This document shows, piece by piece, positions 11,715-19,831 of a stretch of 34,937 nucleotides of DNA. The notes under the pieces are model-generated. The model had not been told where the DNA came from. It saw only the letters and a list, made by a program, of their open reading frames with translations, and ran no database searches. Every line of letters begins with the position of its first letter. Within the stretch, counting starts at the first letter, position 1. Source of the stretch: Tissierellia bacterium (GTDB taxonomy: Bacteria; Bacillota; Clostridia; Tissierellales; Tissierellaceae); contig JAAYNS010000182.1 in assembly GCA_012520755.1 (NCBI GenBank), positions 1-34,937 of the forward strand, read 5' to 3'. The position numbers and the translations under genes were made by a program.

Positions 11715-12821
11715 TTATTTTACTTTATTTAGAAATGGTTGTAAAATTCTATTTAAGAATGATACCCTTTCCACTTCATACTTAGCAACTAAATCATCCC
11801 TTCTAATTAGATTACCATACAAAAATACTTCTACATACCCAAGTATTTCATCTTTTGCTATAGGAGTATTAATCTGTTCATTTATATGGACTGACATCTT
11901 AACGCTCTTTAGCTCCTCATCCATAAGGGGATAAAAGAAATCATTATCTGCAACTAGTGCAATTTTATCTCGCTTACCATCAGTAACATCAGCTAGAGTA
12001 ATCAATTGTCCTTTCTCATATATATTATATAGCTTAAAATTCTCAAAACCATATTCCATTATTTTATAATTATCGTTGAACCAATTTGGAGCATTCAAAG
12101 ACACAGCTATTAACCTCATATTATTTCTAGTAGCACTTGTGACAAGGCATCTTCCTGAAGCCATTGTATATCCGGTCTTACCACCATCGGCCCCTTCATA
12201 CTCCCATAAAGCCTTGTTTTTATTAATAAAGTAATTATCTGTTTCCCGTTCACATTTATATGTTTTGGCACTAAATATATTCTTGAATTCATTGTATTCA
12301 AGAGCCTTTCTAGTTATAAAAGCTAAATCATAGGCTGTTGTGTAATGATTTTCATCATATAATCCATGAGGATTCACAAAATTCGTATTTAAGGCACCTA
12401 TTTTCCTTGCTTTATTATTCATCATAGAAACAAAGGCCTCTTCAGTGTTTCCTATATGATTTGCAATGGCTACAGCTGAATCATTACCAGATCTTAGGAT
12501 TAAGCCATATATTAAATCTATTAATTTAACCTTTTCTCCCTCTTTTAGATAAATACTAGAACCTTCAATGTTAATACTTTCTTTACCAATCTCTACAAGG
12601 TCATCTAAATTACCGTATTCTATGGCTAATAATCCAGTCATTATTTTAGTTGTACTTGCCATTGGCATTCTATTACGTGCATTCTTTTCAAGAATAACTC
12701 GACCTGAACTTTCTTCAACAAGTATATAGCTTTCAGCACTCAAGCTTAAATTGGATGCATAAGTATTCTCATTTAATAACAGTAGTAACATTAGTGTCAA
12801 TATAAACAGTATTTTTTTCAA
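11715..12821 (-). CDS. dacB: D-alanyl-D-alanine carboxypeptidase (peptidase S11), DacB-like
   Basis: Trims the terminal D-Ala of peptidoglycan stem peptides outside the membrane. The 368 residues begin with a signal peptide (LFILTLMLLLLLNENTYA). The three S11 motifs follow: SxxK at 56-59 (ASTTKIM), SxN (RSGNDSAVA) and KTG (GGKTGYTMASG). A C-terminal PBP5-like domain and an amphipathic end complete it. The start is TTG at 12821 with GGAGGG upstream. Its place between scpB and rluB equals that of B. subtilis dacB, a spore-cortex enzyme, hence the name. DacF upstream of scpA is a paralogue. A terminator-like hairpin lies just upstream. Confidence 0.9.
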   Translation of the reverse strand: MKKILFILTLMLLLLLNENTYASNLSLSAESYILVEESSGRVILEKNARNRMPMASTTKIMTGLLAIEYGNLDDLVEIGKESINIEGSSIYLKEGEKVKLIDLIYGLILRSGNDSAVAIANHIGNTEEAFVSMMNNKARKIGALNTNFVNPHGLYDENHYTTAYDLAFITRKALEYNEFKNIFSAKTYKCERETDNYFINKNKALWEYEGADGGKTGYTMASGRCLVTSATRNNMRLIAVSLNAPNWFNDNYKIMEYGFENFKLYNIYEKGQLITLADVTDGKRDKIALVADNDFFYPLMDEELKSVKMSVHINEQINTPIAKDEILGYVEVFLYGNLIRRDDLVAKYEVERVSFLNRILQPFLNKVK

Positions 12822-12950: not shown

Positions 12951-13484
12951 TTATTCATTATCTAATTCTGTTTGAAATTCTTCAATTCTAGGTAAATCAT
13001 CTATTGACTCTAAGCCAAAGTGTTTCAAAAACACTTCTGTAGTCCCATATAGAATTGGTCTTCCCGTTCTTTCAAGCCTACCCAATTCTTGTACCAGCTC
13101 TCTTTCTATAAGAGTTTCAATAGCTTTATCACTCCTAACACCTCTTATAGCATCTATTTCAGATTTAATAATGGGCTGCTTATATGCAATAATCGATAAT
13201 GTTTCTAATGAAGCATTAGATAAATTTCGTGTATTTTTTTTGTTATTTAATCTCTTGACCCACTCATAATGCTCTGGCCTAGTTCCTATTTGATAATAAT
13301 CATTAAACTTAATAATTCTAAGACCTCTCCTATGAAAATCAAAATCATCTATTAATTCCTTCATAATAACAGTTAGTGATTTTTCGTCTATTTCTAAAAC
13401 TGTTGATAAGTCCTTTATGCTCAAGGGATCTCCCCACGCAAAAAGCAATCCTTCTATTACAGACTTTACTTCCCTTTTATCCAT
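12951..13484 (-). CDS. scpB: Segregation and condensation protein B
   Basis: The winged-helix (kite) subunit of the SMC-ScpAB condensin that organises and segregates the chromosome. The 177 residues show the N-terminal ScpB domain (KSVIEGLLFAWGDPLSIKDL), the NASLETLSIIAYKQPIIKSE helix-turn-helix block and the IRGVRSDKAIETLIER and TGRPILYGTTEVFLKHFGL signatures. The start ATG at 13484 lies 2 bases after the scpA stop, indicating coupled expression. Confidence 0.96.
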   Translation of the reverse strand: MDKREVKSVIEGLLFAWGDPLSIKDLSTVLEIDEKSLTVIMKELIDDFDFHRRGLRIIKFNDYYQIGTRPEHYEWVKRLNNKKNTRNLSNASLETLSIIAYKQPIIKSEIDAIRGVRSDKAIETLIERELVQELGRLERTGRPILYGTTEVFLKHFGLESIDDLPRIEEFQTELDNE

Positions 13485-13486
13485 TA

Positions 13487-14224
13487 TTATACCTCTACCA
13501 TCCTTCTAATAATTAGAATATCACTAAATGAATCATCTTGTTCAACCCAAATTGACTTAAGTCTTACTAGTTCAAGTATCGACAAAAAATATGCAATAAC
13601 TTCTCCTTTAGAAGTCCTTATGGATAACAAATCAGAAAACAAGACTCTCTCACTTTTTGAAAGACGACTCTTTATATTATCAGTACATTCATCGAGGGTA
13701 TATTCTTCCCTATGTAATTCTTCGAAATCTAGCAGTTCATTATCATTAGTTTTTCTTGTTATAATAGAATTAATCGCTTTTAATAGCTTGTCCAAATCCA
13801 AATTTCCTAACTCTTCTACAGGATCATCAAAGATAGATAAATCTTCTCTAGGTTTATAGAATACTCTTGATTCAATTATTTCTGATTCCTTAAGTTTTTC
13901 AGCTATTTCTTTATATGTTTTATATTCAATTAGTCTTTGAACAAGTTCATCTCTAGGATCAACTTCTATTTCTACTCCATCTTCAACAGTCTTATCTTTT
14001 GGTAGCAACATTTTTGATTTTATCTCTATAAGAGTGGCCGCCATTACCAAGAACTCGCTTGTTACTTCTAAATTAAGTTCCCCCATTTTACGTATATAAC
14101 CCAAATACTGCTCAGTAATAGTGTTTATCGGAATATCATAAATATCAATTTCATCTTTTTTTATAAGGCTTAACAATAAGTCCATTGGGCCTTCAAATAC
14201 TTCCACTTCAACTTTATATACCAT
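13487..14224 (-). CDS. scpA: Segregation and condensation protein A
   Basis: The kleisin subunit that links the SMC heads. The protein begins VYKVEVEVFEGPMDLLLSLIKKDEID (ScpA N-terminal signature) and ends with the winged-helix region (RTSKGEVIAYFLSILELVRLKS) that contacts SMC. I place the start at the ATG at 14224 (245 residues), 6-7 bases after TAGGTG. The GTG at 14233 has no ribosome-binding site of its own. It follows the site-2 protease gene within 9 bases. Confidence 0.96.
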   Translation of the reverse strand: MVYKVEVEVFEGPMDLLLSLIKKDEIDIYDIPINTITEQYLGYIRKMGELNLEVTSEFLVMAATLIEIKSKMLLPKDKTVEDGVEIEVDPRDELVQRLIEYKTYKEIAEKLKESEIIESRVFYKPREDLSIFDDPVEELGNLDLDKLLKAINSIITRKTNDNELLDFEELHREEYTLDECTDNIKSRLSKSERVLFSDLLSIRTSKGEVIAYFLSILELVRLKSIWVEQDDSFSDILIIRRMVEV

Positions 14225-14233
14225 ATAGTACAC

Positions 14234-14824
14234 CTACAAACTCATTATTTTTATCATCAAAGATAATATAAAATCTATAATGGGACCAATTATCTTACTT
14301 GTTGTATTTGTTACAATTAATAAGACTAATACAAAATAAAAATATCTTTCATACTTGTAAAAATAATATTCCCATTTATTAGGTAGAAGACTAGCCAATA
14401 TCTTCGAGCCATCCAAGGGAGGTAATGGTAGTAAGTTAAAGACCCCCAACATAATATTATACCATAAGCCAGTAATAATCATTATACTAACTGTTCTACT
14501 AGTAATAGGTGCATATCTTAATATAAAAGCACATATAATAGCAATAATAAAATTTGTTGTTACACCTGCTATAGATACTAAAATTGTATCTCTTTTTCTG
14601 TTTTTGAACCTTGATGGATTAATAGGTACTGCCTTAGCCCATCCAAATCTGAATACAAGCATACATAAAAAACCTACAAGATCAAGATGCTTAATTGGAT
14701 TTAAAGTTAATCGGCCTGCTTCCTTGGCTGTATCATCTCCTAATAGATATGCTACATAACCATGAGCAAATTCATGAAATACTATAGCGCTTAGTAATCC
14801 TGGTAAACTATATAATATATCCAT
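14234..14824 (-). CDS. Site-2 protease family membrane metalloprotease (M50)
   Basis: A 196-residue intramembrane zinc protease of the short YwhC/SpoIVFB-like S2P group. The zinc-binding HExxH is at residues 18-22 (VFHEFAHGYVAYLLGD). A second metal/active site block reads NLLPLPPLDGSKIL, with Asp as the third ligand. Four to five transmembrane helices surround these. The start at 14824 follows AGTAGGT and is forced by the promoter: an upstream ATG-like start at 14875 lies before the -10 box. It heads an operon with scpA and scpB, as in many clostridia. The substrate is unknown. It lacks the CBS domain of SpoIVFB. Confidence 0.92.
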   Translation of the reverse strand: MDILYSLPGLLSAIVFHEFAHGYVAYLLGDDTAKEAGRLTLNPIKHLDLVGFLCMLVFRFGWAKAVPINPSRFKNRKRDTILVSIAGVTTNFIIAIICAFILRYAPITSRTVSIMIITGLWYNIMLGVFNLLPLPPLDGSKILASLLPNKWEYYFYKYERYFYFVLVLLIVTNTTSKIIGPIIDFILSLMIKIMSL

Positions 14825-14857
14825 TAAATACCTACTTTCTAATATATAGATATTTAC

Positions 14858-14886
14858 ATTATACAACCTCGACAAAATAATGTCGA
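14858..14886 (-). promoter_or_regulatory. Sigma-A type promoter of the site-2 protease-scpAB operon
   Basis: The minus strand has TCGACA (5 of 6 to TTGACA), exactly 17 bases, then a perfect TATAAT, about 27 bases before the expected transcript leader end at the ATG (14824). The -35 and the whole spacer are part of a perfect inverted repeat. Confidence 0.75.
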
Positions 14887-14890
14887 GGTT
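14865..14890. repeat. Perfect 10-bp inverted repeat overlapping the protease-scpAB promoter
   Basis: Plus strand AACCTCGACA, AAATAA, TGTCGAGGTT. The arms cover the -35 box and the spacer, stopping one base short of the -10. It also lies 8 bases after the dacF stop, so its transcript could form a hairpin, but no T-run follows it on the minus strand. Each arm contains TGTCGAG, one base from the Spo0A box TGTCGAA. It could be an operator, a weak terminator of dacF, or both. Confidence 0.7.
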
Positions 14891-14897
14891 TATATAC

Positions 14898-16046
14898 TTA
14901 ATTACCAGTTATGAAACTTTGGAAGGTACGTTTTAGCATCAGAAAAATTTTGGCGTTTTCAACATCATTTTTGGCTATCAAGTTTATCTTTTCAATCTCC
15001 TTATTATCTAACAATATAGTTAAACTCCCCAATACATCTCCTTGCTTTATTGGGGACTTGATGTTTTCTTTATAATTTACTTCTTTTTTTAGATTTCCTG
15101 AATTACCTTTTGGCAACAATGCAAAAGAATCTCTTTCAAGTACTAACTCTATATTCCTTTGAGAAGCTTTTTCAATAGGGATTTTAGCTATTACATCTCC
15201 TTTTTTCCCAATAGCTATTGAATCATAATTGGCAAATCCATAATCTAATAACTTAGTTGCTTCATTAAATCTAATATTACTGGTTTCTGCGCCTAAAATA
15301 ACAGAAATCAGATATAAATCACCCCTCTTAGCTGATGCAGAAAGACAATATTTAGCTTCATTAGTCGATCCAGTTTTTATTCCAGTAGTCCCTTCATAAT
15401 CTCTTATTAGCTTATTAGTATTTACCATGACCTGGGTATCATCTTTAGCCCTACCTACTAATATATCTTCCATGTATGTTGTTAGATATTTTTGTATGTC
15501 TGAATGTTTCATCAACTCTCGGGACATCAAAGCTATATCGTATGCTGTTGTATAATGATTTTCTGTAGGTAGTCCACTAGAATTAACAAAGTGAGTATTG
15601 TTCATTCCTAAAGTTTTTGCTCGTTCATTCATCAAGTTGATAAAACCTTCATTTGTACCACTAATGGCTTCCCCTAATGCCACTGCAGCATCATTAGCAG
15701 ATCTTATAGAAACAGCTTTTATTAAATCTTCAACAGTTTGAACTTCCCCTTGTTCAAGATAAATTTGTGTTCCACCCATACTGGAAGCATATTGGCTTAT
15801 AACAACCTTATCATCCATCTTTAATTTACCACTGTCTATCGCTTCCATCGCTAGTAACAAAGTCATAATTTTAGTAACGCTGGCAGGTGGTAATTTTTCA
15901 TGTTCATTATGTGCAAAAATCACTTTTCCTGTATTATAATCCATCAATAAAGCCGACTTACAAGTAACTTCTAATTCTGCAAATGCCACCGCTGGATTAA
16001 GTAACATTATTATTAAAAAGAAAAGAGAAATGGTCTTCTTTTTCAA
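14898..16046 (-). CDS. dacF: D-alanyl-D-alanine carboxypeptidase (peptidase S11), DacF-like
   Basis: A penicillin-binding-protein-5 type carboxypeptidase acting on peptidoglycan at the cell surface. A signal peptide (residues 1-23, ending AVAFA) is followed by SxxK at 56-59 (ASVTKIM), SxN (RSANDAAVA), KTG (GIKTGSTNEA) and a C-terminal PBP5 domain with an amphipathic anchor. I take the TTG at 16046 (382 residues) as start, because GGAGG lies 8 bases upstream. A longer frame from TTG 16061 would begin inside that ribosome-binding site. It follows pdp as B. subtilis dacF follows deoB/pupG. The spoIIA operon expected after dacF in Bacillus is not here. Confidence 0.9.
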   Translation of the reverse strand: MKKKTISLFFLIIMLLNPAVAFAELEVTCKSALLMDYNTGKVIFAHNEHEKLPPASVTKIMTLLLAMEAIDSGKLKMDDKVVISQYASSMGGTQIYLEQGEVQTVEDLIKAVSIRSANDAAVALGEAISGTNEGFINLMNERAKTLGMNNTHFVNSSGLPTENHYTTAYDIALMSRELMKHSDIQKYLTTYMEDILVGRAKDDTQVMVNTNKLIRDYEGTTGIKTGSTNEAKYCLSASAKRGDLYLISVILGAETSNIRFNEATKLLDYGFANYDSIAIGKKGDVIAKIPIEKASQRNIELVLERDSFALLPKGNSGNLKKEVNYKENIKSPIKQGDVLGSLTILLDNKEIEKINLIAKNDVENAKIFLMLKRTFQSFITGN

Positions 16047-16260
16047 TGTAATAACCTCCAATACTATTTTATTAAGTCTTTAATTTTATAATAACCTAAA
16101 ATAGTATTGTTATTCTACAATTCACTTTTTTACTTAACCATAGAACTTAAAAAACTAATGGCCATCTAAAAGCACTAAAATATGCCTTTTTACAAGACAG
16201 TTAAAACTCCTAAGTCACCAAACAATATAAGCCAATTGATTAATAATAAATGTAAAGCAT

Positions 16261-18941: not shown

Positions 18942-19760
18942 TTATTGTGCCTTTACTAAGGTATCTTGTTCTAATCTTAATTTGTCTGCTATTAACGCTA
19001 TAAACTCACTGTTTGTAGGTTTCCCCCTATTATTGTTCACAGTATAACCAAAAATACTATTTATAGTATCAATTTTACCCCTGTTCCATGCAACTTCTAT
19101 TGCATGACGTATAGCCCTTTCGACCCTACTTGGTGTAGTATTAAACTTTTCAGCCACACAAGGATATAGTTCTTTAGTCACAGCTCCCAAATAATCCATA
19201 TCTTCGATTACTAATGTAATTGCTTCCCTTAAGTATAAGTACCCTTTAATATGTGCTGGAACTCCAATTTCTTGAATAATCTCAGTCACTTTACTTTCTA
19301 AACTTTTTTCACTTATTATTGGTTTTTTATTTACCAGTGTATTTATTCCTCTACTAGTTCTTTCATCCATTCCCAATACTTCATCCCTAATACCCACCGT
19401 ATCTTTTAACCTCTTAATGAATATCTTAAAATCAAAAGGTTTTACTACATAATACGAGGCACCTAGTTCTATTGCCTTTTGAGTAATTTTGTCTTGACCA
19501 ACGGCAGATAAAACTATAACCTTTGGATAGTATTCTTCAAACTCGTTTAATTTCTCTAATACACCCAAACCATCTAGATGTGGCATGATTATATCTAAAA
19601 CAAGCAAATCAGGCCTTTCTCTGTCAATAATCTCTAAAGCCTCTATACCATCCCTAGCCACACCAACTACTTGAAATTCCTCTTGAGCAGAAATAAATTG
19701 TGCAATTATCTGACAAAACTCTTTGTTGTCATCTGCTATTGCCACCCTAATTTTTTCCAT
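18942..19760 (-). CDS. spo0A: Stage 0 sporulation protein A, master sporulation regulator
   Basis: A response regulator that, once phosphorylated, commits the cell to sporulation. The 272 residues match the family. The receiver domain has acidic residues Asp10/Asp11 (IADDNKE), the phosphorylated Asp56 (LLVLDIIMP), a switch Ser (VIVLSAVGQ) and conserved Lys (YYVVKPFDF). The C-terminal DNA-binding domain carries [20 protein letters not shown] and ends [18 protein letters not shown]. The ATG at 19760 follows a G-rich ribosome-binding site. It follows spoIVB as in nearly all spore formers. A sigma-H-like promoter with an exact 0A box lies upstream, which implies autoregulation. Confidence 0.98.
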
Positions 19761-19802: not shown

Positions 19803-19831
19803 CTATTCGACATTATTACAAAAACTCCTTC
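19803..19831 (-). promoter_or_regulatory. Candidate sigma-H promoter of spo0A
   Basis: The minus strand has GAAGGAGTT, 11 bases, then GTCGAATAG. Against the sigma-H consensus (RNAGGAWWW, 11-12 bases, RNNGAATWW) each half has one mismatch. B. subtilis spo0A is also driven by sigma-H. The position is about 45 bases before the ATG. Confidence 0.65.
19806..19812 (-). promoter_or_regulatory. 0A box (Spo0A-binding site)
   Basis: The minus strand reads TGTCGAA, identical to the Spo0A~P box. It overlaps the -10 of the candidate sigma-H promoter, suggesting that Spo0A~P acts on its own gene. It was the only exact copy I found in the window. Confidence 0.68.

Follow-up and report, generated by a model that had tools for sequence, protein, structure and literature searches.

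The described systems closest to the element analyzed here are intrinsic terminators, dyad operators on sigma-A type promoters, the DNA sites of Spo0A (0A boxes), and the stem-loops in 5' leaders that stabilize mRNA. The 0A box is degenerate at base 3 in the TGNCGAA form of its consensus. The bases of the box that Spo0A contacts are G2, C4, and G5 (PMC3485338), and terminators of Bacillus subtilis with interrupted U-tracts function with NusA and NusG (PMC8060035). Among the open-access titles and abstract openings listed by a literature search, nothing concerned the element itself, which is no proof of its absence from print.

The window, a stretch of 34,937 nucleotides from a Tissierellia bacterium (assembly GCA_012520755.1, contig JAAYNS010000182.1), carries on its minus strand, in this order, pdp, a dacF-like carboxypeptidase gene, the dyad, an M50 peptidase gene, scpA, scpB, and a second carboxypeptidase gene. 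The features needed below are as follows.

14865 to 14890, minus strand: dyad, or stem-loop, upstream of M50-scpAB, with 10-base arms and a 6-base loop (sequence, single-copy search, ortholog comparison).
14881 to 14890, minus strand: 5' arm (coding strand), AACCTCGACA, holding the -35-like TCGACA at 14881 to 14886.
14865 to 14874, minus strand: 3' arm (coding strand), TGTCGAGGTT, lying within the promoter spacer and varying less than the other arm.
14858 to 14863, minus strand: -10 box TATAAT, 17 bp from TCGACA; same arrangement in 17 of 20 rows of family f1.
14234 to 14824, minus strand: site-2 type M50 peptidase gene (Pfam, PF02163); the ATG start at 14824 is our choice, the ORF table having a longer TTG start.
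13487 to 14233, minus strand: scpA (Pfam, PF02616).
12951 to 13484, minus strand: scpB (Pfam, PF04079).
14898 to 16061, minus strand: dacF-like D,D-carboxypeptidase gene, upstream (Pfam, PF00768 and PF07943).
18942 to 19760, minus strand: spo0A (Pfam).

The plus strand from 14865 to 14890 reads AACCTCGACAAAATAATGTCGAGGTT, and the dyad is written AACCTCGACA-N6-TGTCGAGGTT. An earlier note on this DNA had called it a perfect 20-bp inverted repeat; the 10-base arms are indeed perfect around a 6-base spacer, but the total span is 26 bp. The stop codon of the dacF-like gene lies 7 bp upstream on the coding strand. A scan of the organism's own 1.92-Mb assembly (209 contigs) for further copies, as that note had proposed, found the dyad to be unique at up to 3 mismatches, and an Rfam scan of positions 14600 to 15100 gave no match at the gathering score, all five matches lying far below it. 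M50-scpAB is flanked by two S11 carboxypeptidase genes (11715 to 12821 and 14898 to 16061). A second perfect hairpin, ATAGAGTGG-N4-CCACTCTAT, lies at 1145 to 1166 of the window and is terminator-like, with a T-rich tail on the minus strand.

CCTCGRC/GTCGAGG stems, or variants differing at one or two bases, precede (M50-)scpAB in 20 of the 28 genomes in the window's own family (f1, own genome included) and in 17 of 20 genomes of family f6; both totals take in variants that came to light when junctions were read or a covariance model was run. Relatives retain both dyad and promoter, and not, as the earlier note had allowed for, the promoter alone. Among the named members, which were assigned to families through identity of their junction sequences, are Tissierella species (f1) and, in f6, Schnuerera and [Clostridium] ultunense. 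The M50 gene was matched beside the element in 34 of the 37 genomes carrying the hairpin; G007 and G235 have scpA next to it, and in G236 the contig ends just past a start codon downstream of it. In the eight f1 genomes without the element the best covariance-model match had an E value of 0.06 or weaker, and for four of these genomes the junction was inspected directly. The remaining three f6 genomes comprise one with a rewritten stem (G229), one whose contig starts at the stem (G231), and one in which no hairpin was found (G228).

Exact searches gave the same location. Of the 60 genomes making up the relatives set, the window's own among them, 18 have CCTCGAC-N3-9-GTCGAGG, at one site each, and all 18 sites are upstream of M50-scpA. 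With a spacer of N2-12, a search of 249 genomes of the order, again counting the window's own, found the exact dyad in 28: 16 in family f1, 9 in f6, and 3 in f4. The f4 sites read, one locus per genome (L050 to L052), have none of the four query genes nearby; G073 has a second site. Each f1 or f6 genome found by exact search has one site except G230, whose two sites are at contig ends beside the same junction. Contigs C23 and C103 of G230 and C185 of G231 end at or near the hairpin, and assemblies may break at palindromes. Further sites of a regulon were found neither with the exact dyad in the 249 genomes nor among the weaker covariance-model matches listed. Of the weaker-match places with E < 0.1, seventeen were read, a set that does not include, for example, G012:C9 and G224:C74; by eye they are mostly post-gene with T-rich tails, and two overlap an open frame (L216, L219). 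A class-wide search hit 7 of 391 genomes, 5 of them outside the order, and a reversed control pattern hit 2; each of the five out-of-order sites is a hairpin with T-rich DNA behind it, and in the 3 kb fetched nothing matched M50, ScpA, DacF, or Pdp.

Judged from these junctions, the hairpin belongs to the scpAB operon rather than to dacF. It is downstream of pdp instead of dacF in four genomes (G020, G025, G027, and G007), and in Tissierella simiarum about 0.8 kb containing a broken, divergent minus-strand gene separates dacF from an intact hairpin. In G007 and G235 (L201 and L203) M50 is unmatched at the junction and the hairpin stands directly before scpA; G007 is 55% complete, yet its scpA junction was read directly. 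The hairpin is absent from four f1 rows in which M50 begins 11 to 22 nt past pdp (L008, L010, L020, and L022). The broken T. simiarum gene, at about 2100 to 2960 of L139, is transporter-like by eye. A second inverted repeat, AACGGGGCTA ... TAGCCTCGTT, occurs in the M50 leader of G002 (L005) and resembles the first arm.

The putative promoter that had been proposed to lie in the dyad was confirmed in sequence as TCGACA (14886 to 14881, minus strand), 17 bp, and TATAAT (14863 to 14858), one base past the dyad. With a score of 11 out of 12 it is the best of 66 promoter-like matches in 10 kb, where such sites overall are near chance (66 against a shuffle mean of 57.8). TCGACW-17-TATAAT, which has the -35 and -10 boxes and a spacing within the 16 to 18 bp of a sigma-A type promoter, lies over the hairpin in 17 of 20 f1 rows, and we infer that TCGACA-17-TATAAT probably serves as the scpAB promoter. 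There are two promoter ARRANGEMENTS, hairpin-overlapping in most f1 rows and upstream of the stem in genus g12 and, by eye, in f6. The stem begins 13 to 18 nt past the -10 box in the eight f6 rows in which a TTGTAT-type block scores best, and 12 to 19 nt past it in three g12 rows. Scored against the hairpin-overlapping candidate, the upstream candidate is ahead in 13 of 17 f6 rows, level in 1, and a single point behind in 3 (L013, L070, and L072); because scores of 8 to 9 are common in AT-rich DNA, the f6 call rests on the conserved block seen by eye. With the likely promoter upstream, the f6 hairpin would therefore lie in the leader. The g12 TATAAT may be a coincidence, since it is located within pdp codons. 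A start-stop mini-ORF at TATAATG, with GAGG before it and the ATG kept in most of f1, was dropped by eye, its length running from 0 to about 11 codons and the frame not being kept in f6.

The earlier note had considered perfect arms unusual in this DNA, a view that calls for revision. In 435 kb, made up of the window and 400 kb of a genome of the same genus, there are 51 perfect repeats (arm of at least 9, loop of 3 to 10, at least 4 G/C) against 1 in one Markov shuffle, many of them sitting just 3' of open frames, terminator-like. A hairpin (arm of at least 7, at least 3 G/C) that ends 0 to 3 nt before a TATAAT occurs in the same 435 kb solely at the dyad and at its ortholog. The dyad is unusual through that position and through its retention at one place, and not as a perfect hairpin. 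The missing T-run had also been held to make a plain terminator less likely. That verdict was too strong, the lack of a run being relative: in the 34 orthologs the 12 bases past the last stem G/C hold 5 to 8 T, with a longest run of 2 in 31 rows and of 3 in 3 rows. For comparison, among 49 post-stop hairpins of G002, its own ortholog included, 38 have 6 to 9 T and 42 have runs of at least 3. A stable, G/C-containing stem-loop soon after a gene, as in a terminator, is present, perfect in the window; it starts 5 to 27 nt past the upstream stop codon in 18 f1 rows and 51 to 66 nt past the dacF stop in 14 f6 rows.

Whether the element acts as DNA or as RNA was addressed with stem tables of 34 rows. 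Their pattern fixes CCT, G, CG, and GG, restricts L8 and R5 to A or G, and leaves L1, L2, L6, L9, R1, R2, R8, and R9 free, so the invariance of the fixed stem bases is partly by construction. It took in 34 of the 36 f1 and f6 rows with an intergenic gap above 40 nt, dropping L071, whose stem is rewritten, and L074, whose contig has its first bases at the stem; also outside the 34 are the later finds G007, G235, and G236, the rows of families f2, f13, and f15, and the short-gap rows. Loops of 8, 6, 5, and 7 bases occur in 18, 13, 2, and 1 rows, respectively. The loop is 8 in all 17 f1 rows with TATAAT 17 bp from TCGAC, and 5, 6, or 7 in f6; half-site spacing thus ranges from 5 to 8, where a dimeric operator would hold it fixed. 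Where only one side of a pair has changed in the 33 distinct stems of the 34 rows, the change is usually A to G in the sense strand, and such changes occur at four positions; the 297 pair cells include 15 G·U, no A·C, and 3 other non-pairs, so that 99.0% are paired. The minimum numbers of changes on the protein tree are 4 at L1, 3 at L2, and 5 at L8 in the left arm, and 1 each at R1, R5, and R9 and 0 elsewhere in the right arm; at L8, which lies in the -35-like box, all 19 f1 rows have A, as do 9 of 15 f6 rows. Such asymmetry counts against a symmetric dimer, because that dimer should treat both arms alike. Double changes that keep pairing are a C-G to G-C swap in G007, outside the 34 rows, and an A-U to U-A swap in one genome; a U-A to C-G change separates the Anaerosalibacter rows L121 and L112, and G229, set beside L067 by eye, has a largely rewritten stem of about 16 pairs. 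Formal covariation is weak, since most stems are identical (43 of 500 shuffles reach the observed values); the single cases of G007, G229, and Anaerosalibacter, all outside the tested set, weigh more. The G/C pairs of the stem hardly vary, beyond what pairing demands, although several of those bases are fixed by the row pattern. Taken together, the varying spacing and the sense-strand G·U changes would speak for an RNA hairpin over an operator.

We tentatively read the element, with a probability of roughly 45%, as a terminator-derived boundary hairpin with the scpAB promoter built in, acting mainly as an RNA hairpin of the coding strand. Sequence and position are conserved, the changes preserve pairing, and the spacing is fixed where the promoter overlaps; weakened read-through at the hairpin and descent from a terminator are what we infer from this. 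The stem-loop would mark the boundary between (M50-)scpAB and the gene before it, which is dacF or, in some genomes, pdp, and would most likely descend from the upstream unit's terminator. Within the family of the window, the 5' arm would supply the -35-like box, the 3' arm would fill the 17-bp spacer, and TATAAT would stand where a U-tract is expected to start. RNA arriving from upstream would fold into the hairpin, transcription would be slowed or partly ended there, and RNA polymerase would initiate afresh on the same bases for M50-scpAB. A terminator origin is the simplest reading because the f2, f13, and f15 junctions and the outgroup junctions hold terminator-like hairpins. By eye, f2, f13, and f15 rows at the same junction (L011, L014, L024, and L027, and the named rows L111, L112, and L121) have a long hairpin and then T-rich DNA, with a promoter-like pair in the arms and loop, and two Clostridiales outgroup rows (L164 and L169) have an ordinary terminator followed by a separate promoter-like sequence. 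In the protein tree f1, f6, and f2/f13/f15 form separate groups whose order is open. The long hairpin of the dacF-M50 junction reads AGCTAGATATATTGTAT ... in L014 and L112, and the tree puts the three Peptoniphilaceae rows inside f1, on long branches. Also in favor of the boundary hairpin are its absence from the four f1 rows with M50 close behind pdp, the short distance from upstream stop codon to stem in f1, and the B. subtilis terminators that function with interrupted U-tracts. Against the boundary hairpin stand the short T-runs in all 34 rows, the weak formal covariation, the near-invariant G/C pairs, and the T. simiarum hairpin, intact though its nearest upstream gene is the broken divergent one. 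A terminator in f6 or g12, where the likely promoter is upstream, would moreover cut the operon's own transcript.

The main rival is a DNA operator at which a putative dedicated dimeric regulator would bind CCTCGAC/GTCGAGG half-sites, located on the promoter in f1 and a little downstream of it in f6; this is possible but on balance doubtful. It would account for an element that accompanies scpAB whatever the upstream gene, precedes scpA where M50 is missing, occurs once per genome in f1 and f6 by exact search (the two junction-flanking contig ends of G230 excepted), holds a fixed position on the promoter in 17 f1 rows, and varies little in its 3' arm, which is partly fixed by the row pattern. 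It fits poorly with half-sites 5 to 8 bp apart and with changes that fall mostly in one arm, A to G, and it would require an altered regulator for the rewritten stem of G229 and the C-G to G-C swap of G007. A stem-loop in leader or intercistronic mRNA, protecting the scpAB transcript or guiding its processing with no role in termination, is unlikely. The RNA involved would be the 5' end in f6 and g12 and dacF-M50 read-through RNA in f1; the distance from -10 box to stem in the eight f6 and three g12 rows suits this role, as do the kept pairing and the short T-runs, but in 17 f1 rows the predicted start is downstream of the stem, and the operon's own RNA would not carry it.

Two further proposals bear on the promoter itself. 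The scpAB promoter could be a hairpin switch, its bases folding in RNA that comes in from upstream and acting as promoter in the DNA, so that read-through from the cell-wall gene dacF and fresh condensin initiation are mutually exclusive; it would possibly be read by a condensin subunit such as ScpB; the single site at the scpAB operon is what suggests such autoregulation, and we regard the switch as distinctly improbable. That the promoter arose by chance on a decaying terminator stem, the hairpin having no present role, seems very improbable: the -35 and -10 boxes would account for part of the f1 conservation, but the 3' arm, which is no promoter element, shows the least variation, and the hairpin persists in rows with their likely promoter elsewhere.

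The arms had also been likened to 0A boxes, and an inverted pair of such boxes would tie condensin and protease expression to sporulation. The half-sites do not bear out the likeness. All 34 rows have G at base 7 of each half-site, and T stands at base 1 of both in only 2 of 34, the window being one; the base-7 G is fixed by the row pattern, yet only 2 of 36 rows failed that pattern. The spacing is variable, and three genomes (G020, G025, and G027; 96, 97, and 93% complete) keep the hairpin without a Spo0A_C match, two of them with G·U pairs. In favor of the box pair, 33 of 34 rows retain the contacted G2, C4, and G5 in each half-site, L029 lacking one G2 and several of these bases being fixed by the row pattern, and the most variable inner stem base, L8, falls on the degenerate base 3. 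A Spo0A_C match was found in 32 of 37 genomes with the element (16 of 20 in f1, 16 of 17 in f6) and in 1 of 8 f1 genomes where the hairpin was not found; this co-occurrence is judged to be shared history, because the g10/g12 clade accounts for much of the loss. Spo0A is thus an unlikely binder of the dyad on present sequence evidence, and the link to sporulation is highly improbable. The sole TGTCGAA of the window is at 19806 to 19812 (minus strand), upstream of spo0A, and [AT]TGNCGAA occurs in 18 of 21 spo0A upstream regions (window plus 20 relatives). There, AGAAGGAGTTTT ... TGTCGAAT is largely kept in 20 relatives and has the look of a sigma-H type promoter, with the 0A-box-like TGTCGAA falling on its -10 box; we take AGGAGTTTT ... 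GTCGAAT to resemble the sigma-H consensus. The region is not a clean local reference for 0A boxes, because the kept A7 may belong to the sigma-H type -10 box.

As far as we are aware, few studies have addressed how bacterial condensin dose is controlled. A cis-element that two families retain ahead of scpAB, and that two genomes lacking M50 at this place carry directly before scpA, would offer a concrete handle on it, and the hairpin switch, if true, would be a dedicated control of that dose. The locus is, in addition, a clear example of a terminator-like hairpin with a promoter built into it, and the several arrangements displayed by relatives would let termination, leader, and operator models be separated experimentally.

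Compared with the described systems, the element resembles intrinsic terminators of the B. subtilis type that have an interrupted U-tract and are assisted by NusA and NusG, in its G/C stem with an A-U foot, its T-rich, interrupted tail, and its position 5 to 27 nt past the upstream stop in f1. It differs from them in a longest T run of 2 to 3, in overlapping the next promoter in f1, in a stem sequence conserved across two families, and in an f6 stem that lies 51 to 66 nt past dacF, after the likely promoter. Like a dyad operator on a sigma-A type promoter, the palindrome covers a -35-like box and the spacer and has a single target operon as searched; unlike one, it has a spacing of 5 to 8, its changes follow one-strand RNA pairing, and its regulator is only putative. 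It shares with the 0A box a GTCGA core in each arm, but departs from it in the G at base 7, the unconserved base 1, the inverted halves with variable spacing, and its retention where no Spo0A was found. With the mRNA-stabilizing stem-loops of 5' leaders it has in common a likely 5'-proximal hairpin in f6 and g12, whereas in 17 of 20 f1 rows the hairpin lies outside the operon's predicted transcript.
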